From Corallococcus sp. AS-1-6 (lineage in GTDB: Bacteria > Myxococcota > Myxococcia > Myxococcales > Myxococcaceae), in NCBI RefSeq assembly GCF_020037015.1, contig NZ_JAIQDE010000024.1, positions 62,001-126,000 of the forward strand: a stretch of 64,000 nucleotides of DNA, written 5' to 3'. The first letter of the stretch is position 1. Every line of letters starts with the position of its first letter. The translations under genes were made by a program, and so were the position numbers. Below, in pieces: positions 4,116 through 13,627 of the stretch. The notes beneath the pieces are model-generated. The model was not told the origin of the DNA, did no database searches, and saw only the letters and a program-made list of their open reading frames with translations.

Positions 4116-5717
4116 TCAGTAGTTGCCGGAGATGACCTTGGGCAGGGCCTTCGCCAGGTCCGGCAGGGGGCCAATCTGCCGCGTGTCCGAAGCCTGCGCC
4201 GTGCCGTTGTTGCGCAGCAGGCCGCGCATCTGCACGGACGTCAGCAGCCGGCCGTTGGCGCGCGCCACGCCCTGGGCGCTGACGGCGGCGCCCACGATGA
4301 TGGGCGACGCGCTGGAGGTGCCGCTGAAGGTGGACGTGTAGTACTGGTCCTCGCCGTACCCGCTGCCGAAGCGGTCGCCGTAGCCGGTGGTGACGACGGA
4401 CTCGCCCCAGCCGTGCACGTTCACGCGCTGGCCGAAGTTGGTCCAGCACATGGGCACGCGCGTGGTGGCGGTGCTGGCGCCCACCAGGATGGCGCCCGAG
4501 TCACGCGTGGCCGGGTTGAACCGGCCGCCGTACGCGGCCGCGTCCAGGTTCGCGCTGCCGTTGCCCGCCGCCTCCACGATGATGACGCCGTTGGCGGTGG
4601 CGTTGCGGATGGCGTCGTAGTTGTCCTGCCAGTACTCCATCGCGATGTAGTTGCACTGGGACGTGTTGCACGTGCAGGCCGTGCCGTCGCTGGGGCCGCC
4701 CGCGTGCAGCTCGATGAGGACGACGCCGCCCGTGCCCACCGCCGCCGCCGCGTTGGTGATGGCGCTCGCGGTGCTCTGCGCGCCAATGGCCTCCACGCCC
4801 GGCGTCGCTGCGTTGGCGATGCCCGTCACGCCGTAGCCGTTGGACGCGCCCACGATTTCACCCAGCACCGCGGTGCCGTGGTTGCGCCAGCCCAGGTCGT
4901 TGTACTGCGTGCCGCCCACCCGGAAGAACGTGGGGAAGTCCTCGTGCGTGGTGCGCCAGCCTCCCTCGATGTCCACGAACTTCACGTTGGTGCCCCGGCC
5001 GCCCGTCACCGTCCACGCGTACGTCGCGTTGATGCCGGAGGGCGCCGCGTTCAGGTAGCCCTGGTTCGCCTGGTACAGCGGCGTGGTGGGCGGCAGGTCC
5101 GCCGCGGACAGGAGCGCGCGCAGCCCCGCCTCCATGGCGAAGTTCACCATCGCCGGCTCCGGGGGCGGCGCCGCGTAGGCCGTCTCCACGCTGCCAACGC
5201 GGTTGAGCGCCGCCACCAGGTCCGCCACGGTGTCCGCGGTGGTGCCGGGCAGCAGCGGAACTTCGAAGTACAGGTTCAGGTCCGCCAACTGCTCGCCGCT
5301 CGCGCGCTCACCGGACGCCTTGCTCGCGTCCAGCGTGGCCTCCTCCGCCTGGAACACCCGCTCCAGCGCCCCGATGCGCGGCGCGCGGTCCAACAGCGCC
5401 ACCACCTCCGCCAGGTCCGCGTCCACGCGCGCGGCGTCCAGGCGCAGGCCGGCCAACAGCTCGCGCTCGCCGGCGCTGCGCTCGGAGGACAGGGCGCGCA
5501 GCGCGTTGTCGCGCAGGCGCACGTGGCTGCCCTCGTGGAACTTCACCACCAGCCGCTCCACGAACGTCCCCGCGGGCAGCTCGCGCCCCGTGGGCTTCGC
5601 CAGGAGCGCGCGCGGCGCCAGCGAGGGCGCGGCGCCAGCAGCGGGGGCCAACGCCAGCAGGGACACAGCCATGACCGCGCCACGCAGGCGGAGCGGGGAC
5701 AGCGTCGACTTCAGCAT
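4116..5717 (-). CDS. Secreted subtilisin-like serine protease (S8 family)
   Basis: This 533-residue protein has a signal peptide (about residues 1-30, hydrophobic MAVSLLALAPAAGAA) and a long helical prosegment of about 180 residues. The S8 catalytic domain follows. Catalytic residues are visible: Asp249 in FVDIEGGW, His280 in NHGTAVLGEI and Ser468 in SGTSSASPI. The oxyanion Asn sits in VIIVEAAGNGS. A Cys-rich insert (GTACTCNTSQCNY) is present between His and Asn and could form disulfides. The ATG at 5717 was chosen because GGAGGAAG sits 5 nt upstream; an ATG further upstream has no such site. Exported proteases of this kind serve nutrient scavenging and predation in myxobacteria. The catalytic Asp is in DIEGGW rather than the usual DTG, so the subgroup is atypical. 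Confidence 0.9.
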   Translation of the reverse strand: MLKSTLSPLRLRGAVMAVSLLALAPAAGAAPSLAPRALLAKPTGRELPAGTFVERLVVKFHEGSHVRLRDNALRALSSERSAGERELLAGLRLDAARVDADLAEVVALLDRAPRIGALERVFQAEEATLDASKASGERASGEQLADLNLYFEVPLLPGTTADTVADLVAALNRVGSVETAYAAPPPEPAMVNFAMEAGLRALLSAADLPPTTPLYQANQGYLNAAPSGINATYAWTVTGGRGTNVKFVDIEGGWRTTHEDFPTFFRVGGTQYNDLGWRNHGTAVLGEIVGASNGYGVTGIANAATPGVEAIGAQSTASAITNAAAAVGTGGVVLIELHAGGPSDGTACTCNTSQCNYIAMEYWQDNYDAIRNATANGVIIVEAAGNGSANLDAAAYGGRFNPATRDSGAILVGASTATTRVPMCWTNFGQRVNVHGWGESVVTTGYGDRFGSGYGEDQYYTSTFSGTSSASPIIVGAAVSAQGVARANGRLLTSVQMRGLLRNNGTAQASDTRQIGPLPDLAKALPKVISGNY

Positions 5718-5756
5718 GGACTTCCTCCGGGATGGACAACATCCCCACCATGCCAC

Positions 5757-5830
5757 GCCGGTCTGTCATTCAAATCTGGCTATTCTGCTATTTCTATCCT
5801 GATGGTTTATTCGCGCCTCATTGAACCGGG
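5757..5830 (-). promoter_or_regulatory. AT-rich promoter region of the subtilase gene
   Basis: Bases 5757-5830 are strikingly AT-rich compared with the surroundings and lie 40-110 bp upstream of the subtilase start. This is the natural place for its promoter and UP-like elements. Several TATTCT/TATTTC-like hexamers are present, and no single -35/-10 pair can be chosen with confidence. Confidence 0.35.
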
Positions 5831-5847
5831 CGGGCGTGCGAAGGCGC

Positions 5848-6726
5848 TCAGGTGCTCTGCTCGAAGGGGACGGGGGGCCGGGCCAGGGCGCGCTCCGCGG
5901 ACAGCCGGGCCTGGTCCAACGCGTCGAAGCCGCGCTCCAGCGTGGCGGGCGTCACCGGGGGCAGGTTGGAGACGACGACGTAGACGGGCACGTCGCGCGT
6001 CTGGAGCACGGTGAGCTGGAGCCGGAAGTGGTCGCGCCGGAGCGCGGCGGAGCCGGCGGCCAGACCCTGCGGATAGGCCATGGGGCCGCCCACCACCTTG
6101 CGCGTGCGGCTGGGCAGGTAGTGCACGAGGATGGCGTCCAGGTCCTTGCCGATGGCGCTCTCCTGGAGGGCCAGCGCGGGCGCCTTGTCCACCAGCCCGC
6201 CGTCCCAGAAGAGCTGTCCGTCCAGCGGCACCGCGCGGAAGAGGCCCGGGTACGCGCAGGTGGCGTGGACGCGCGGGGCCAGCTCCCCGGTGGTGAACGC
6301 CTGGTGCGTGCCCTGGGTGAGGTTGGCGACGGTGAGCAGCAGCGGGTGCGGCAGGTCCTCGAAGGTGGACACCGGCAGCGTGGACTCCAGCAGGCGCCGG
6401 AAGCGCTCGCCCTTGAGCAGGCCCGTGAAGCCGTGCCCCTGGGACGCCACGTTCAGCATCGCGCCAAGGGGGTCCGGGTCCCAGAAGTTGGCCCGCGTCT
6501 GGCGCAGCACCAGCTCCTCCAGCGCCGGCATGGGCATGCCCGCCGCCGCGTACGCCGCCACCATCCCGCCCGCGGACGTGCCCGCGTAGGCGTGGGGCTT
6601 CAGGCCGCTGGCGTGCAGCCCCTTCAGGAAACCCGCATGGCCGTAGAACCCGAAGTAGCCCGCGGAGAGGACCAGCCCGAACCGCTTGCCTTCGAGCAGG
6701 GAGTGCAACGTGGAGGAGGGAGCCAT
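5848..6726 (-). CDS. Patatin-like phospholipase
   Basis: This 292-residue protein has the hallmarks of patatin lipases. They are a glycine-rich oxyanion region (LVLSAGYFGFYGHAGFLKGL), the nucleophile elbow GTSAGG with Ser51, and the catalytic Asp in FWDGGLVDKAP near residue 173. No signal peptide is seen, so it is cytoplasmic or secreted by a non-Sec route. Patatins cleave acyl groups from phospholipids or other lipid esters. The gene is transcribed divergently from sahR; the 99 bp between the two starts contain a perfect 19-bp palindrome and the sahR promoter. No strong Shine-Dalgarno is visible at 6726. Confidence 0.85.
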   Translation of the reverse strand: MAPSSTLHSLLEGKRFGLVLSAGYFGFYGHAGFLKGLHASGLKPHAYAGTSAGGMVAAYAAAGMPMPALEELVLRQTRANFWDPDPLGAMLNVASQGHGFTGLLKGERFRRLLESTLPVSTFEDLPHPLLLTVANLTQGTHQAFTTGELAPRVHATCAYPGLFRAVPLDGQLFWDGGLVDKAPALALQESAIGKDLDAILVHYLPSRTRKVVGGPMAYPQGLAAGSAALRRDHFRLQLTVLQTRDVPVYVVVSNLPPVTPATLERGFDALDQARLSAERALARPPVPFEQST

Positions 6727-6757
6727 TTCGGATTTTTACGGGATGGGTGCGTTCCAA

Positions 6758-6776
6758 GGCAACGCAATGCGTTGCC
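6758..6776. repeat. Perfect 19-bp palindrome between divergent genes
   Basis: GGCAACGCAATGCGTTGCC is a perfect inverted repeat (9-bp arms, one central A). It lies 32 bp upstream of the patatin-like gene start and 50 bp upstream of sahR. Its symmetry and position fit a dimeric-repressor operator. It differs in sequence from the sahR operator nearby, so a second regulator would be needed. Confidence 0.6.
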
Positions 6777-6784
6777 GGGGCCAT

Positions 6785-6812
6785 TGTGCCCGTGTCAGAG
6801 CATCGATATATG
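6785..6812 (+). promoter_or_regulatory. Candidate sahR-metH promoter
   Basis: A -35-like TTGTGC (6785-6790) and a -10-like TATATG (6807-6812) are separated by 16 bp. The -10 lies inside the 18-bp sahR operator, so repressor binding would block RNA polymerase. The predicted transcript start, around 6819-6821, is only 5-7 nt before the sahR ATG and no Shine-Dalgarno is seen, so a leaderless mRNA is likely. Confidence 0.45.
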
Positions 6813-6818
6813 TTGATG
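6801..6818. promoter_or_regulatory. Candidate SahR operator
   Basis: CATCGATATATGTTGATG is an imperfect palindrome with 14 of 18 symmetric positions, ending 7 bp before the sahR start codon. ArsR-family repressors bind such AT-centred palindromes, and SahR is known to repress SAM-cycle genes including its own locus or metH. That this exact site is the operator is inferred from position, symmetry and overlap with the -10 element. Confidence 0.6.
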
Positions 6819-6825
6819 GCTCGAT

Positions 6826-7722
6826 ATGGACGTTCTCTCCCAATCCTTCCGTGTCCTGGGGGACACGACGCGGCTGCGCATCCTGCGGCTGGTGGCCCAG
6901 GCGCCGCTGAACGTGACGGAGCTCGTGTCGCTGGTGGGGGTGGCCCAGTCGTCGGTGTCGCACCACCTGTCGAAGCTGAAGGGGCTGGGGCTCATCCGCG
7001 AGGAGCGGCAGGCGGGCTTCACGTACTATTCGCTGGCGCTGGAGTCGGATGACTCGCGCTGGCCGCTCGTCCGGCTGGCACGCGAGGCGGATGACGCGGC
7101 GGGGGACTCGGCGCGGCTCAACGACCTCTTGCGCGCGCGGGAGGACCGGCAGGCGCTCAACGAGCGGCTGCTGGAGCCCGGCCAGTCGTGGTTCCTCTGG
7201 GCGGGGGCGCTGGCGTCGCTGCTGCCGCCCCTGGACGTGGCGGACTTCGGCTGCGGCACGGGCGTGTTCAGCCGGGCCATGGCGCGGTGGGCGCGGCACG
7301 TGTGGGCCATTGACCAGAGCGAGGACGCGCTGTCCCAGGCGCGCGCCCTGGCCCAGCGTGACGCGCTCACCAACATCACGTTCCTGCGCGAGGACCTGCA
7401 CCGGCTGTCCCTGGCCGGCGGGCGCATGGACCTGGTGGTGATTTCGCAGAGCCTCCACCACGTGGAGGCGCCCGCGGCGGTGGTGGCGGAGGCGGCGCGG
7501 CTGCTCAAGCCGGGCGGCCGGCTGGTGGTGCTGGAGCTGATGCCGCACGAAGAGAAGTGGGTGCTGGAGCGGTTGGGGCACCGTCACATGGGCTTTTCGC
7601 CCGAAGTCCTGGAAGCGGCCCTTCGCGAGGCCGGCTTCACGTCGTTCACCCGCGAGACGCACGCGCGCGACGGGGCCAGTCCCTTCCGCGTCTTCCTGCT
7701 GACCGGAGTCAAACCGTCATGA
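6826..7722 (+). CDS. sahR: SahR-like repressor: ArsR DNA-binding domain fused to SAM-methyltransferase fold
   Basis: This 298-residue protein joins an ArsR winged helix (residues about 1-75, LGDTTRLRILRLV, VGVAQSSVSHHLSKLKGLGL) to a class I methyltransferase-like domain. That domain starts near residue 135 with VADFGCGTGVFSRAMARWA, then VISQSLHHV and LLKPGGRLVVLELM. This architecture defines SahR, whose methyltransferase domain senses S-adenosylhomocysteine and releases DNA when SAH is high, inducing methionine-cycle genes. The metH gene follows directly, with its ATG overlapping the sahR TGA, exactly the context expected. No zinc-binding Cys motif of metal-sensing ArsR proteins is present. 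An ordinary regulator-methyltransferase of unknown target is the alternative. Confidence 0.85.
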   Translation: MDVLSQSFRVLGDTTRLRILRLVAQAPLNVTELVSLVGVAQSSVSHHLSKLKGLGLIREERQAGFTYYSLALESDDSRWPLVRLAREADDAAGDSARLNDLLRAREDRQALNERLLEPGQSWFLWAGALASLLPPLDVADFGCGTGVFSRAMARWARHVWAIDQSEDALSQARALAQRDALTNITFLREDLHRLSLAGGRMDLVVISQSLHHVEAPAAVVAEAARLLKPGGRLVVLELMPHEEKWVLERLGHRHMGFSPEVLEAALREAGFTSFTRETHARDGASPFRVFLLTGVKPS

Positions 7723-10700
7723 CGAGCCACATCGCCCAACCCCTGCCGCTTCCCCCCGGGGAGCACGGCCAGCGCGTGCAGGCGCTCCAGGCCGCGATGC
7801 GCGAGCGCATCCTGGTGCTGGACGGCGCCATGGGCACGCTCCTGCAGGGCCACCAGTTGATGGCGGCGGACTTCGGCGGCGCGGAGTACGAGGGCTGCAA
7901 CGAGCACCTGGTCCTCACCCGCCCGGACGTCATCGAGGGCATCCACGCGAAGTACTTCGCCGCGGGCGCGGACGTGACGGAGACGGACAGCTTCGGCGGC
8001 ACCCCGGTGGTGCTGGCGGAGTTCGAGCTGGGCCACAAGGCGATGGAGATCAACATCGCCGCGTCCCGCCTGGCGCTGAAGGCCGCGAAGGCCGCGGAGG
8101 CGAAGGACGGGCGGATGCGCTGGGTGGCGGGCTCCATTGGCCCCACCACCAAGGCCATCAGCGTCACGGGCGGCATCACCTTCGAGGAGCTGGTGGACAA
8201 CTTCGCCGTGCAGGCGGAGGGGCTCGCCCTGGGCGGTTCCGACTACCTGCTGGTGGAGACGGCGCAGGACACGCGCAACGTGAAGGCGGCGCTGCTGGGC
8301 ATCGACCGGGCCTTCCGGAAGCTGGGCTGGAAGCTGCCGGTGGCGGTGTCCGGCACCATCGAGCCCATGGGCACGATGCTCGCGGGCCAGTCCGTGGAGA
8401 GCCTGGCCACGTCGCTGGAGCACACGGACCTGCTGTACCTGGGGCTCAACTGCGCCACGGGCCCGGACTTCATGACGGACCACATCCGGTCGCTGTCGTC
8501 CATGAGCCCGTTCCCGGTGTCGTGCGTGCCCAACGCGGGCCTGCCGGACGAGAACGGCCAGTACCTGGAGTCGCCGGAGATGATCGCCCGGTCGCTCCGG
8601 CGCTTCTGTGACAACGGTTGGATCAACGTGGTGGGCGGCTGTTGCGGCACGCACGCGGGCCACATCGAGGCGCTCGCCGCCGCGGTGAAGGGGCTCAAGC
8701 CTCGCACGGAAGTTCCGAAGCCGCGCTCGTCGCTGTCCGGCGTGGACTACCTGGAGGTGACGGACGAGCAGCGCCCCATCATCGTGGGTGAGCGCACCAA
8801 CGTCATCGGCAGCAAGAAGTTCAAGGAACTCATCGTCGCGGGCGCGTTCGACGACGCGTCGGAGATTGCCCGCGCCCAGGTGCGGCGGGCGGCGCAGGTC
8901 ATCGACATCTGCCTGGCGAACCCGGACCGGGACGAGCTGGAGGACATGCGCCACTTCCTGGAGGTGGTGGTCAAGAAGGTGCGCGTGCCGCTGATGATCG
9001 ACTCGACGGACGAGAAGGTCATCGCCATGGCGCTCACGTACTGCCAGGGCAAGGCCATCATCAACTCCGTCAACCTGGAGGACGGCGAGGAGCGCTTCGA
9101 GAAGGTCGTCCCGCTGGCGAAGGCGTTCGGCGCGGCGCTGGTGGTGGGCTGCATCGACGAGGTGGGCATGGCCGTCACGCGCGACCGCAAGCTCGCCGTG
9201 GCCGAGCGCAGCTACGAGCTGCTCACCCAGAAGTACGGCATGCGCCCGGAGGACCTCTACTTCGACCCGCTGGTGTTCCCCTGCGCCTCCGGTGACGCGC
9301 AGTACACCGGCAGCGGCGTGGAGACGATCGAGGGCGTGCGGCTGATCAAACAGCGCTTCCCCCAGTGCCGCACGGTGCTGGGCATCAGCAACGTGTCCTT
9401 CGGCCTGCCCACCGCGGGCCGCGAGGTGCTCAACTCCGTGTTCCTGTACCACTGCGTGCAGGCGGGCCTGGACATGGCGCTCGTCAACTCGGAGAAGCTG
9501 GAGCGCTACCCGTCACTGCCGGAGGAGGAGCGCAAGCTCTCCGAGGACCTCATCTACAACCGGGGCACGGACCCCGTGACGCCCTTCGCGGCGCACTTCC
9601 GCGAGCGCAAGCCCGCACGCGCCCAGGTGAGCAGCCTGCCGCTGAACGAGCGGCTCCAGCGCTACATCATCGAGGGCACGCGCGACGGCCTGACGGCGGA
9701 CCTGGACCTGGCGATGAAGGAGATGTCGCCGCTGGAGATCATCAACGGGCCGCTGATGAAGGGCATGGACGAGGTGGGCCGCCTCTTCGGCGCCAACGAG
9801 CTCATCGTCGCGGAGGTGCTCCAGAGCGCGGAGTCCATGAAGGCGGCGGTGAGCCACCTGGAGCCGCACATGAGCAAGACCCAGGCGGCGTCGCGCGGGA
9901 AGATCGTCCTCGCGACGGTGAAGGGGGACGTGCACGACATCGGCAAGAACCTGGTGGAGATCATCCTCGCCAACAACGGCTTCCAGGTGGTGAACCTGGG
10001 CATCAAGGTCCCGCCCGAGCAACTGGTGCTGGCGGTGAAGGAGCACCGCCCGGACATCCTGGGCCTGTCCGGCCTGCTGGTGAAGAGCGCGCACCAGATG
10101 GTGGCCACCGCGGAGGACCTGCGGCGCGCGGGCGTGGAGACGCCCATCCTGGTGGGCGGCGCCGCGCTCAGCCGCAACTTCGTGGACCGCAACATCGCCC
10201 CGGCCTACGGCGGCGGCACGGTGGCCTACGCGCAGGACGCGATGAACGGCCTGGAGCTGGCGAAGCAGATTGTCGAACCGGGCGCGCACGCGAAGCTGCG
10301 GGATGACCTGGCCGCGCGGCGGCTGAAGCTGGCGCAGGAGGCGAAGGACCGGCCCGCGCCCGCGGCCCCGGTGCGCCGCTCGCGCAGCACGGAGGTGCCG
10401 GTGCTGGCCACGGTGCCGCCCGCGCCGGACTTCGCGCGGCACGTGCTCACCAACACGCCGTTGGACCACATCTGGAAGTTCATCAACCCGGTGATGCTCT
10501 ACGGCCGCCACCTGGGCCTGCGCACGTCGTCGCGCGCGCTGGGGACCCCGGCCGAGGCGGAGCTGGCGAAGACGGAGGAGGGCCGCAAGGCGCTGGCGCT
10601 GAAGGAGGCGGTGGAGGAGCTGAAGACGCTCCTGCGCGGCGGCGTGATGCACGCGCGCTCGGTGTTCCAGTTCTTCAAGGCGGCCAGCGACGGCGACCGG

Positions 10701-11234
10701 GTGCTGCTCTTCGACGGCACGACGGGCGAGCCGGTGACGTCCTTCGACTTCCCCCGGCAGGACAAGGACAACGGCCTGTGCCTGGCGGACTACGTGAAGC
10801 CGCTGGAGAACGGCAAGCCGGTGGACGCGCTCTCGCTGTTCGTCACCACCGCGGGCGCGGGCATCCGCGAGCTGTCCGAGGGCTTCAAGGCGAAGGGCGA
10901 GTTCCTCAAGATGCACGCGGTGCAGGCGCTGGCGCTGGAGACCGCGGAGGGCTACGCGGAGCTCCTGCACACGCAACTGCGCAGCATGTGGGGCTTCCCG
11001 GACCGCGCGGACATGACGATGCTGGAGCGCTTCCGCGCGGAGTACACCGGCAAGCGCTACTCGTTCGGCTACCCGGCGTGCCCGCGGCTGGAGGACCAGA
11101 CGAAGCTGTTCGCCGCGCTCAAGCCGGAGGAGATCGGCGTGCAGCTCACCGACGGCTGCATGATGGAGCCCGAGGCGAGCGTGTCCGCCATCGTCTTCCA
11201 CCACCCGGGCGCCACGTACTTCTCCGTGACGTGA
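7719..11234 (+). CDS. metH: Cobalamin-dependent methionine synthase
   Basis: This 1171-residue enzyme transfers a methyl group from 5-methyltetrahydrofolate to homocysteine through cobalamin. All modules are present. The homocysteine domain (about 25-330) has zinc ligands Cys245 (LNCATGP) and Cys308-Cys309 (GGCCGTH). The pterin domain (about 360-620) starts with IIVGERTNVIGS. The cap domain is at about 630-725. The B12 domain has axial His739 in GDVHDIGKN and GLSGLLVKS. The C-terminal SAM-activation domain (about 880-1171) ends with YPACPRLED and DGCMMEPEASVSAI. The length fits full-size MetH. It is coupled to sahR by an ATGA overlap and is followed by a strong hairpin, so the two genes form a bicistronic, SAH-regulated operon. 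Confidence 0.97.
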   Translation: MTSHIAQPLPLPPGEHGQRVQALQAAMRERILVLDGAMGTLLQGHQLMAADFGGAEYEGCNEHLVLTRPDVIEGIHAKYFAAGADVTETDSFGGTPVVLAEFELGHKAMEINIAASRLALKAAKAAEAKDGRMRWVAGSIGPTTKAISVTGGITFEELVDNFAVQAEGLALGGSDYLLVETAQDTRNVKAALLGIDRAFRKLGWKLPVAVSGTIEPMGTMLAGQSVESLATSLEHTDLLYLGLNCATGPDFMTDHIRSLSSMSPFPVSCVPNAGLPDENGQYLESPEMIARSLRRFCDNGWINVVGGCCGTHAGHIEALAAAVKGLKPRTEVPKPRSSLSGVDYLEVTDEQRPIIVGERTNVIGSKKFKELIVAGAFDDASEIARAQVRRAAQVIDICLANPDRDELEDMRHFLEVVVKKVRVPLMIDSTDEKVIAMALTYCQGKAIINSVNLEDGEERFEKVVPLAKAFGAALVVGCIDEVGMAVTRDRKLAVAERSYELLTQKYGMRPEDLYFDPLVFPCASGDAQYTGSGVETIEGVRLIKQRFPQCRTVLGISNVSFGLPTAGREVLNSVFLYHCVQAGLDMALVNSEKLERYPSLPEEERKLSEDLIYNRGTDPVTPFAAHFRERKPARAQVSSLPLNERLQRYIIEGTRDGLTADLDLAMKEMSPLEIINGPLMKGMDEVGRLFGANELIVAEVLQSAESMKAAVSHLEPHMSKTQAASRGKIVLATVKGDVHDIGKNLVEIILANNGFQVVNLGIKVPPEQLVLAVKEHRPDILGLSGLLVKSAHQMVATAEDLRRAGVETPILVGGAALSRNFVDRNIAPAYGGGTVAYAQDAMNGLELAKQIVEPGAHAKLRDDLAARRLKLAQEAKDRPAPAAPVRRSRSTEVPVLATVPPAPDFARHVLTNTPLDHIWKFINPVMLYGRHLGLRTSSRALGTPAEAELAKTEEGRKALALKEAVEELKTLLRGGVMHARSVFQFFKAASDGDRVLLFDGTTGEPVTSFDFPRQDKDNGLCLADYVKPLENGKPVDALSLFVTTAGAGIRELSEGFKAKGEFLKMHAVQALALETAEGYAELLHTQLRSMWGFPDRADMTMLERFRAEYTGKRYSFGYPACPRLEDQTKLFAALKPEEIGVQLTDGCMMEPEASVSAIVFHHPGATYFSVT

Positions 11235-11245
11235 CCGGAGGAACA

Positions 11246-11278
11246 CCGGGAAGAGGGCCGGAGGGCCACTCTTCCCGG
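11246..11278. terminator. Hairpin terminator after metH
   Basis: Perfect 10-bp arms CCGGGAAGAG (11246-11255) and CTCTTCCCGG (11269-11278) enclose a 13-nt loop that can itself pair (GGCC/GGCC). It sits 12 bp past the metH stop and 15 bp before the end of the convergent small-protein gene, so it probably serves both strands. No T run follows. Confidence 0.65.
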
Positions 11279-11292
11279 AAGATGCACGAACG

Positions 11293-11700
11293 TCAGGCGC
11301 GCAGGTCGCGGAGGGCGTCGGAGAAGGCCCCGGCGGCGACGCCCAGGCTGGCGGCCTCCTTGCCGTGCTTCTTCCGGTCCTCGGCGTTCTTCGCCTTGTC
11401 GTCGTTCATCTTCTTGTGCGCCTCGTCGCGGGCCTTGCCCTCGTCGTGGATCGCCTTGTCCTCATCCTTCTTGGCCTTGTCCGTGAGGGCATCCGCGGCC
11501 TTCTTGCCCAGGTCGGCCGCCTTCTTGCCCGTGTCGAGGATGCCCATCAGCGACCACTGCTCCGCCAGCGCCGCCTGCACCGCCTGACGCAGCTCCTGCG
11601 CGCTGTGGCCCACCTCGGGCGCCGCCACCTGGCCCGCCTCCGCCAGCTTCGGCAGGTCCCGCGACGTGATGAGCCCCGCTTCGGTGTTGTGCTTCGACAT
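11293..11700 (-). CDS. Lys/Asp/Glu-rich small protein, possible partner or substrate of the ATP-grasp cluster
   Basis: This 135-residue protein is not recognised. It has an ordered-looking N-terminal part (residues 1-55) with VGHSAQELRQAVQAALAEQW. A low-complexity, very charged middle follows (about 60-112; LTDKAKKDEDKAIHDEGKAR and so on), then a short Ala-rich helix at the end. The start ATG at 11700 has AGGGGGAT upstream. It is the third gene on the minus strand after the two ATP-grasp-type genes, 53 bp downstream of the ligase gene, with a small hairpin in between. The charged middle rich in Lys, Asp and Glu is the type of substrate ATP-grasp peptide ligases act on, but a general stress- or nucleic-acid-binding protein is just as possible. 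Confidence 0.7.
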   Translation of the reverse strand: MSKHNTEAGLITSRDLPKLAEAGQVAAPEVGHSAQELRQAVQAALAEQWSLMGILDTGKKAADLGKKAADALTDKAKKDEDKAIHDEGKARDEAHKKMNDDKAKNAEDRKKHGKEAASLGVAAGAFSDALRDLRA

Positions 11701-11717
11701 GGTGTATCCCCCTGGTG

Positions 11718-11744
11718 ATTCCGGCATTCCCGTAAGGCCGGAAT
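11718..11744. repeat. Inverted repeat between ATP-grasp and small-protein genes
   Basis: ATTCCGGC (11718-11725) and GCCGGAAT (11737-11744) are perfect 8-bp arms with an 11-nt loop. The element lies in the 53-bp gap between the ATP-grasp gene and the small charged protein gene. On the minus strand no T run follows, so it is unlikely to stop transcription from the ligase gene; it could be an RNA processing or attenuation hairpin, or an operator for a separate promoter of the small gene. Confidence 0.5.
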
Positions 11745-11753
11745 TTTACAGCT

Positions 11754-12701
11754 TCATGATGCTAGCGGGGCTTGAAGGGAGCGCGCAAGGGCCTGGGCGA
11801 TGGGAAGCCCCGTGTGCTGCTCGAACCACATGAAGCCGGGGCAGGTATTGACCTCCAGGCACACCCAATCGCGGGGGTCGGCGGAGCCGCCGGGGGGCTC
11901 GATGAGGTCGATGCCGGAGAGGTGGAGGCCGAGCGCGCAAGACAGGCGCCGGCACGCGTCGGCCACGGGCTCCGGCAGGGTGGTGGCGCGCAGGTGCACC
12001 GGGTGGCCGGTCATGTCCGGGTGCCGGTAGTCCAGGGCCTGCGACTCCGCGCGGCAGGCGAAAACTTCACGGCCTCCCACGACGTGGACGCGCACGTTGG
12101 TGCCGCTGATGCGCTGCTGGAACTGGTGGGGCGGCGGAGGCCGTCCCGGCAGGAACGCGGCCCGGGTGTCATCCCAGGAGACCTGTTTCACGAGGGAGCG
12201 CTCGTCGCTGACGGACTTGATGACGGGGTCCCCCGTCAGGCCCCGGGCGAAGGGCTCCCACAGCCGCCAGTCGCCGCCCGCCAGGGTGTCGGGCACGCTC
12301 AGGCCCGCGGCGAGGATGGCGGCGTACTGGCAGGGCTTGCTGTTGTTGGACACCATCGCCGTGGGGCGGTTGGCCACCGGGCCGTGGAAGAGGTCCATGA
12401 GGGCATTCGCATGGGCCCGCTCGGCGCGGACCTCCGGCGTCACGTGTTCGCGGACGCCCCCCGTGCCCAGGCGCGAAAAGATGCCGGAGATGTCCTCCAG
12501 GTCGACGCGCCAGGTGGGAAAGCACACCGCTCCTCGCAGCCTCCGCGAGGCGTGAGGCCCCGGCGCCAGGTCCAGCTCCAGGCGCACCTGCGTGCCCAGG
12601 TGCCGCTGGTCCACGAAGAGGTACTCGCTCTTCGTGTCGGTGAGGTGCGCGAGGAAGAAGGACGTCACCAGCTCATCGATGGGACCCATCAACAAGATCA
12701 C
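11754..12701 (-). CDS. ATP-grasp ligase, possible peptide-modifying (graspetide/RimK-like) enzyme
   Basis: This 315-residue protein has the ATP-grasp layout: a short alpha/beta pre-domain, then DPVIKSVSDERSLVKQ (ATP-binding Lys region) and QQRISGTNVRVHVVGGREVF. The C-terminal metal-binding segment has Asp265 in SGIDLIEP and Glu283 and Asn285 in CLEVNTCPGF. Size and order resemble RimK-like and graspetide (MvdC/MvdD-type) ligases, which form amide or ester links using ATP. The start is a GTG at 12701 overlapping the TGA of the upstream gene, with AGGAGG 7 nt before it, so the two proteins are made together. Substrate is unknown; the charged small protein downstream is one candidate. Confidence 0.75.
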   Translation of the reverse strand: MILLMGPIDELVTSFFLAHLTDTKSEYLFVDQRHLGTQVRLELDLAPGPHASRRLRGAVCFPTWRVDLEDISGIFSRLGTGGVREHVTPEVRAERAHANALMDLFHGPVANRPTAMVSNNSKPCQYAAILAAGLSVPDTLAGGDWRLWEPFARGLTGDPVIKSVSDERSLVKQVSWDDTRAAFLPGRPPPPHQFQQRISGTNVRVHVVGGREVFACRAESQALDYRHPDMTGHPVHLRATTLPEPVADACRRLSCALGLHLSGIDLIEPPGGSADPRDWVCLEVNTCPGFMWFEQHTGLPIAQALARSLQAPLAS

Positions 12702-13537
12702 GGCCCGACCTCCTGGCCCGCGAGCTGAGCGCGGACGAAGTGTTCCGCCTGCTCCACGAGCGCGGGGTGCTCACCGGAGAGCATCGACTCCAGGCCCTCC
12801 GGAACGAACGACAGTTGGAGCGCCGCCCAGGCCGTGGGGGACGCGGAGGGCACCAGCAGGACCTCCAGGAACTCCGCGCCACAGCCGGCCGCGAGCCGCG
12901 CGAGGTCCGCGGCGAGTTCGGGTGTCGGCGCCACCCGGGCCCCGCCGCCGTCTTCGACGCTCCACAGGCTGACCTGCTGGCCCATCACCCACGCCATGTG
13001 GAGCGGCCCCGGCGCGGACACCGTCCACCAGACCCGTGCATCGGTGCCCCCCGCCTCCTGGGGCCAGGGCTTCCACCGGCGGCCGTCCTCGGGGGGCGTG
13101 CCCACATGGAAGTGGGGCGGCGCGAGGACGCAGGCCCCCTCTCGTGCCGGGAGCTGTTGGGCGAGCAGCCGCCAGGAGGGCACCGTCCAGGGGACGGAGA
13201 GCAGGCCCCTGCGGTTGAGGGTGCGCGCGGGGCAGGTGGTGTGGAAGCCCTCGCGCAGGGCCTCCCGCTCCGCGCGCAGGTAGTCCTCCTCCGGGGGCAG
13301 CGGACCTTCGGAGAGGCACCAGAACACGTCCTCGCGCTCCAGCTCCTCGGGGCCTTCGGGACCGAGCAGCCCCGCGCGGAACCGGCCGCCCTTCACCTCC
13401 ACCCAGGGCGTCGTGGTGGCGCCCCAGGCTCTCACGGGCACCTCCACGGCGCGGAACCCGGCGCGCAGGGCCTCGGCGCGCAGGAGGTCGCGCAGGTGTG
13501 GAAACAGCTCCGCGCCGACGAGGACGAGCTTGGGCAT
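12698..13537 (-). CDS. Degenerate ATP-grasp-like partner protein
   Basis: This 279-residue protein is not a recognised family member. It starts with a Rossmann-like strand (MPKLVLVGAELFPHLRDLLR) and has a layout parallel to its downstream neighbour. Its C-terminal segment FLEVLLVPSASPTAWAALQL then SFVPEGLESM can be aligned by eye with SGIDLIEP...DWVCLEVNTCPGFMWF of the ATP-grasp protein. The metal ligands are replaced: Asp by Val226, Glu by Gln241, Asn by Ser243. It may therefore be a pseudoenzyme that pairs with the active ligase. The ATG at 13537 places the first beta strand at the N-terminus as expected; an upstream ATG would add 16 residues. The alignment is by eye. Confidence 0.7.
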   Translation of the reverse strand: MPKLVLVGAELFPHLRDLLRAEALRAGFRAVEVPVRAWGATTTPWVEVKGGRFRAGLLGPEGPEELEREDVFWCLSEGPLPPEEDYLRAEREALREGFHTTCPARTLNRRGLLSVPWTVPSWRLLAQQLPAREGACVLAPPHFHVGTPPEDGRRWKPWPQEAGGTDARVWWTVSAPGPLHMAWVMGQQVSLWSVEDGGGARVAPTPELAADLARLAAGCGAEFLEVLLVPSASPTAWAALQLSFVPEGLESMLSGEHPALVEQAEHFVRAQLAGQEVGP

Positions 13538-13627
13538 GGACCCGGAAGCCTCGCAGGCCGCCTCCCCGGGGAACAATCCCCCCATCCAAGTCCGGCCGCC
13601 TTTTCCCGGAAGGGATAGATTGCCGCC

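Follow-up and report, generated by a model that had tools for sequence, protein, structure and literature searches.

Graspetide synthetases phosphorylate Asp or Glu, and Ser, Thr or Lys then attack (PMC13097080). In the corallotide system of Corallococcus (graspetide group 15; CorA/CorB/CorC/CorD), the TIGR04187 enzyme CorB acts on a large precursor, making Lys-Asp isopeptide bonds within its KxxxD motifs, and requires a partner protein for full activity (PMC13097080). The synthetase of rosaritide (graspetide group 21, MirB/MirC) gives no product unless its co-encoded, co-purifying partner is present (PMC13097080). In branch 8 of the ATP-grasp enzymes described by Makarova et al. 2022, an ATP-grasp gene shares its locus with a catalytically inactive ATP-grasp (PMC8939145). 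That inactive partner is truncated to two N-terminal domains, there are peptidases in the locus, and no precursor was found (PMC8939145).

Here we consider three adjoining genes of a predatory soil bacterium, on the minus strand of the window (the whole 64,000-nucleotide stretch of DNA that was analysed). P0001 (12698..13537; 279 amino acids) is a putative catalytically dead ATP-grasp partner, or pseudo-graspetide-synthetase, as judged from a predicted model, Foldseek, VIA-align and alignment. P0002 (11754..12701; 315 amino acids, GTG start) is an active-looking ATP-grasp graspetide synthetase according to TIGR04187, profile matches and invariant residues. P0003 (11293..11700; 135 amino acids) is a small Lys/Asp/Glu-rich protein, which we propose as the substrate on the basis of its conservation, composition and motif spacing. 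Re-reading the open reading frames showed that the coordinates, strand and lengths in the original prediction were all correct. We consider it fairly probable that these genes form a graspetide-type cassette, in which P0002 and the dead P0001 crosslink side chains in the charged, probably helical P0003. The system had been proposed as undescribed, which holds in part: partner-dependent synthetases and truncated inactive ATP-grasps have already been published (PMC13097080, PMC8939145), while we found no description of this kind of pair with this kind of substrate. In the article texts searched, we found no full-length pseudo-synthetase and live enzyme described beside a charged helical protein, and no paper that uses the terms inactive or pseudo ATP-grasp. 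A dead partner and a helix-like protein as the proposed substrate look like unusual twists on graspetides.

The cassette resembles the corallotide system in its Corallococcus host, its TIGR04187-type synthetase, the repeated KxxxD motifs in a large atypical precursor, here a candidate one, and the proposed dependence on a partner. However, the corallotide partner is a 2OG-Fe(II) oxygenase, whereas that of the cassette is a dead ATP-grasp; the corallotide locus has a beta-lactamase-like gene and the 2OG oxygenase gene, and the cassette, with three genes only, has neither. A CorB-like protein and P0002 share only 25% identity over 126 amino acids. Corallotide-like clusters with KVMMD/KIRMD repeats, a CorB-like ATP-grasp and a 2OG-oxygenase-like gene occur in other Corallococcus (L135:3570-6103 in genome G028 and L136:2209-6194 in G018), and G028 also carries, separately, the cassette of the window. 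The rosaritide partner MirC is chaperone/PPIase-like, in contrast to the ATP-grasp P0001. Like P0002 and P0001, branch 8 loci combine a live ATP-grasp with a second, inactive one; judged by the description of branch 8, the cassette is set apart by the full-length fold of the closest partner proteins, P0001 among them, by having no peptidase and by an adjacent candidate substrate. Microviridin-type loci (MdnB/MdnC, AMdnB) are also similar, in that two paralogous ATP-grasp genes of the same fold adjoin a small precursor gene (a putative one in the cassette). However, both microviridin paralogues are active, their precursors have PFFARLLE-type leaders and KYPSD cores, and the P0001/P0002 pair falls in a tree group separate from the microviridin-type enzymes. 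Typical microviridin-type loci (L076-L081), with the PFFARLLE leader, KYPSD cores and two ATP-grasps whose C-terminal motifs look intact, are found in other genera of the family.

Profile comparisons place P0002 in the graspetide-synthetase family. Among NCBIfam models TIGR04187 fits it best (E 4e-27), at 95 bits against a curated cut-off of 350 bits, which the CorB-like protein (90 bits) does not reach either. For a profile of P0002 and ten relatives, the closest solved structures are PsnB (7drm, E 1e-37), PruB (9bou, E 4e-31) and MdnB/MdnC (MdnB 5ig8, E 3e-28), and in the tree P0002 lies beside the microviridin and CorB-like enzymes. As originally predicted, Asp265, Glu283 and Asn285 are retained; these metal ligands, the ATP lysines K122 and K162, and D224-Y225-R226 are invariant in an alignment of all 11 homologues. 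The last three residues sit where graspetide synthetases have their DFR motif, with Tyr instead of Phe. With its ATP and metal ligands intact, P0002 looks catalytically competent.

P0001 is harder to place by sequence. It has no significant family in Pfam or NCBIfam, and a partner profile found no matches among PDB sequences (hmmsearch). In an AlphaFold2 model (mean pLDDT 74.5, pTM 0.75), however, the ATP-grasp fold originally proposed for this 279-residue protein does appear, and it is the full fold of the graspetide-synthetase type. The top Foldseek matches of the model are PruB, CdnC, AMdnB, MdnB/C and PsnB (best E 2.2e-12); in VIA-align, RimK and other ATP-grasp folds come after CdnC (Z 19.4, rmsd 3.5, 263 residues), and the model aligns with full-length synthetases over residues 1-279. 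Although the family libraries give no ATP-grasp match, 11-row profiles of partners and enzymes match each other nearly end to end (hhalign: 96.9% probability, E 2e-10 in one comparison). Comparing six close partners with six close enzymes gives no signal, because these sequences are too few and too similar, and the homology of P0001 and P0002 thus rests on the wider, 11-row alignment and the predicted model.

When the 11 pairs are aligned, P0001 retains only the hinge N-R among the positions compared with the enzyme. Two of the three substitutions originally listed hold (Glu283 to Gln241 and Asn285 to Ser243); the third needs a shift of one residue, since D265 faces Leu227 and not the adjacent Val226. 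Also lost or deleted, and absent from that list, are the ATP lysines K122 and K162 and the D-Y-R motif. The catalytic residues are missing from the partners in all 11 homologues, with a few distant partners keeping an acid at the E283 position. P0001 appears to be dead, yet its dN/dS of 0.20-0.46 shows that it is maintained. Taken together, the model and the alignments show P0001 as a putative pseudo-ATP-grasp of the same fold family as P0002, with its catalytic positions lost and under purifying selection.

The arrangement of the two ligase genes shows sequence signals of coupled expression. As had been noted before, the GTG start of P0002 overlaps the stop of P0001 (GTGA, 12698..12701, minus strand) and is preceded by an AGGAGG ribosome-binding site (12709..12714, minus strand), of which GGAGG is retained in six of six close relatives. 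In all 11 pairs of this type the partner gene comes first and the overlap is 4 nt (GTGA or ATGA). P0003 follows P0002 after a gap of 53 bases. An in-frame ATG at 11727 is a possible upstream start for it, and the ATG at 11700 is common to six of six relatives.

The linkage suggested for the three genes extends to related genomes. P0001, P0002 and P0003 occur together, at two different sites, in the same six of 96 genomes of the family and nowhere else among the 96. In the Corallococcus carriers the cassette lies between metH and the next gene, as a 2.37-kb insertion holding exactly these three genes (11235..13606, no strand assigned), and it is missing in 13 of the 16 genomes of the genus. Comparison by blastn with four empty-site genomes shows homology ending at 11234 and resuming at 13606-13607, with 33-35 bp between. 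Myxococcus carriers have all three genes, their order unchanged, at a different site, flanked by what we take, from reading the sequence, to be genes of a polysaccharide-export-like and an inositol-monophosphatase-like protein. From the patterns at the two sites it follows that the cassette is gained and lost as a whole three-gene unit; the genome comparisons thus show a unit that appears to be both inherited and transferred. In genome G057, all that is left of the cassette at the Myxococcus site (L054:7741-7884) is a stretch of about 50 residues from P0001. In G020 (L051) the cassette occupies the same insertion site as in the window, where its DNA is 77% identical against 98% for the metH flank, which suggests allele replacement, separate acquisition or repeated insertion.

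P0003 has no significant family in Pfam or NCBIfam, yet across the six genomes that carry the cassette it is conserved, with 68-96% identity. The original description of a small, very Lys/Asp/Glu-rich protein is borne out: K+D+E make up 25-30% of P0003 and its five close relatives, whereas the median for 200 called genes in 12 regions is 14%. The N-terminal part is conserved, and the K/D/E-rich C-terminal part is predicted, with low confidence, to form a single long helix (residues 54-134). Lys is followed by Asp or Glu at i+4 ten times, against 3.3 expected. Five KxxxD/E pairs are invariant in six of six homologues (K59-D63, K66-D70, K77-D81, K97-D101 and K111-E115), and every homologue has a sixth pair, whose register varies (K89-E93, or K88-D92 in four relatives). 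In this six-homologue alignment the proposed modified region spans residues 59-115 (11356..11526, minus strand). However, the reverse order, an acid followed by Lys at i+3 or i+4, is likewise enriched, and a plain charged helix is therefore also compatible with P0003. Neither the Phhx(1,2)h leader recognition motif nor a GG cleavage site was seen in P0003, features that are not universal among graspetides.

Five distant loci, with 32-41% identity to P0002, have the partner directly upstream of the enzyme and the same 4-nt overlap. In the tree the partners form one group (98/96) and the enzymes another (90/90), with matching sub-branches, which suggests an ancient pair whose two members have remained linked. 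The two groups are equally deep; branches are long and the rooting is not fixed. A phylum-wide search of 195 genomes gave no further confident partners, the match in G161 being short and weak. Dead and live ligases are repeatedly paired with K/D/E-rich proteins: in four of the five distant loci a K/D/E-rich repeat protein is encoded upstream. Those of L055 and L056 are of the type (TKD)n, those of L058 and L059 of the type (KEFKEKDFKDF)n. When the 200 genes of the 12 regions are ranked by K+D+E, the repeat proteins and the P0003 family take the top eight places and ten of the top 11. Against the family libraries the repeat proteins have only a low-complexity, collagen-like match, and one of them (in G041) has no i+4 Lys-acid excess. 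They share a FISKEERPxVGE-like motif at the C terminus, for which P0003 has a weak counterpart, LITSRDLPKLAE, near its N terminus (shuffle p 0.01-0.05). A recognition motif common to P0003 and the repeat proteins is thereby suggested, although the resemblance is too weak to rely on. In L057 (G066, 5543-9209) the pair has no charged neighbor, and PqqD and a 2OG oxygenase adjoin instead.

Two further features of these loci may be mentioned. In L056:3100-10793 and L055:1915-9644, the (TKD)n protein and the ligase pair come after two large genes (484 and 771 amino acids) with no Pfam match, and a PhyH-type dioxygenase gene comes after the pair. A 58-amino-acid open reading frame in L057 (MQMTQSVVAKGTYVPPALRKHDG...) may be a peptide precursor.

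A locus on plasmid pPCS109 of Candidatus Megaera polyxenophila (AP017967.1, L153:4696-8196) encodes an enzyme 31% identical to P0002. After it comes a 278-amino-acid protein that aligns to that same enzyme (E 7e-8) without its C-terminal acidic residues; the partner profile gave no match on the plasmid. Two tiny Lys-rich open reading frames precede the enzyme, and two dioxygenase genes follow the pair. Of the two small frames, one contains a K/D-rich stretch and the second the sequence FISFDLRPDL (motif p 0.002). By its sequences, this Rickettsiales plasmid locus is apparently a parallel case of the same kind of system.

How might such a cassette work? By analogy with CorB, which is partner-dependent and acts on KxxxD motifs, we infer that P0002 and P0001 crosslink Lys with Asp or Glu in P0003. 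P0002 would use ATP to phosphorylate Asp and Glu side chains of P0003, and nearby Lys side chains would attack, giving isopeptide crosslinks, most plausibly from Lys(i) to Asp/Glu(i+4) along the long helix. P0001, a dead ligase paralogue made in step with P0002, would form a heteromeric complex with it and either hold the substrate or switch the enzyme on. The complex, the role of P0003 as substrate, the type and spacing of the bonds and a benefit to the cell are all parts of this proposed scheme. Many graspetide clusters include a GG cleavage site, a protease or a transporter, and the fact that none accompanies the three genes counts against a graspetide reading.

Several other explanations have to be weighed against crosslinking within P0003. 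The original prediction allowed for either a graspetide or a RimK manner of action, and P0002 might attach amino acids (e.g., Glu) to P0003, in the way that RimK modifies ribosomal protein S6, and form no crosslinks. The Pfam RimK-like ATP-grasp model is indeed borderline for P0002 (20.8 bits, cut-off 21) and RimK structures are among its weaker profile matches, but TIGR04187, PsnB, PruB and MdnB score far better, the rimK_fam model (TIGR00768) reaches 29.8 bits, far under its cut-off of 143.4, and the invariant D-Y-R sits at the graspetide DFR place. With TIGR04187 as the best family and D-Y-R invariant, the graspetide half of the prediction is favored, and we regard RimK-like addition as very unlikely. 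It is also conceivable, if quite unlikely, that P0002 forms its bonds between separate P0003 chains, or between P0003 and other proteins, building up a covalent polymer or matrix in place of intrachain rings. In favor of this are the length, charge and helix-like character of P0003 and the repeat proteins, the lack of genes for export or leader removal, and an engineered graspetide system that can link two proteins brought together by coiled coils (PMC12291112). Against such a polymer, the regular KxxxD/E spacing fits local rings. Moreover, to our knowledge, all characterized natural graspetide bonds lie within one chain.

P0003 might instead be no substrate at all, but an ordinary charged, stress-protein-like helix that is in the operon by chance while the pair acts elsewhere. 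This would suit its roughly symmetric Lys/acid spacing, its lack of a recognized leader and the L057 pair with no charged neighbor; but K/D/E-rich proteins of unlike sequence adjoin the pair in three lineages, and P0003 has travelled with the pair in an exact three-gene insertion, so that we consider this explanation unlikely. That P0001 is simply a decaying, functionless duplicate seems scarcely credible. Its catalytic residues are lost and it diverges faster than P0002 (in the same genomes, 58-60% identity for the partner and 74-77% for the enzyme), but the dN/dS values, a partner unbroken and a 4-nt overlap retained in all 11 pairs, and the depth of the partner group speak against decay.

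It is tempting to extend the preferred reading, crosslinking of P0003 by P0002 with P0001, to a natural form of helix stapling. A heteromer of a live and an obligate dead ATP-grasp would install many i,i+4 Lys-Asp/Glu isopeptides on one charged, helical, cell-retained protein, and both myxobacteria and a Rickettsiales plasmid would follow the same plan with K/D/E repeat proteins that are dissimilar. We put this forward tentatively, as a possibility that is rather doubtful as a whole. The preferred reading itself, if right, would add a pseudoenzyme-dependent class to graspetide biosynthesis, with crosslinked, possibly stapled, helical proteins as products in place of the small peptides that are excreted. 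With only three genes, the unit looks compact and complete enough for a single co-expression experiment in E. coli.

A possible intercistronic hairpin lies between P0002 and P0003 (11718..11744, minus strand). The evidence for it is weak, because a consensus fold of the relatives gives no covariation support; folded one at a time, the six relatives all yield a predicted stem, but their sequences and stems differ. Such a hairpin between the enzyme and small-protein genes may tune the ratio of enzyme to substrate.
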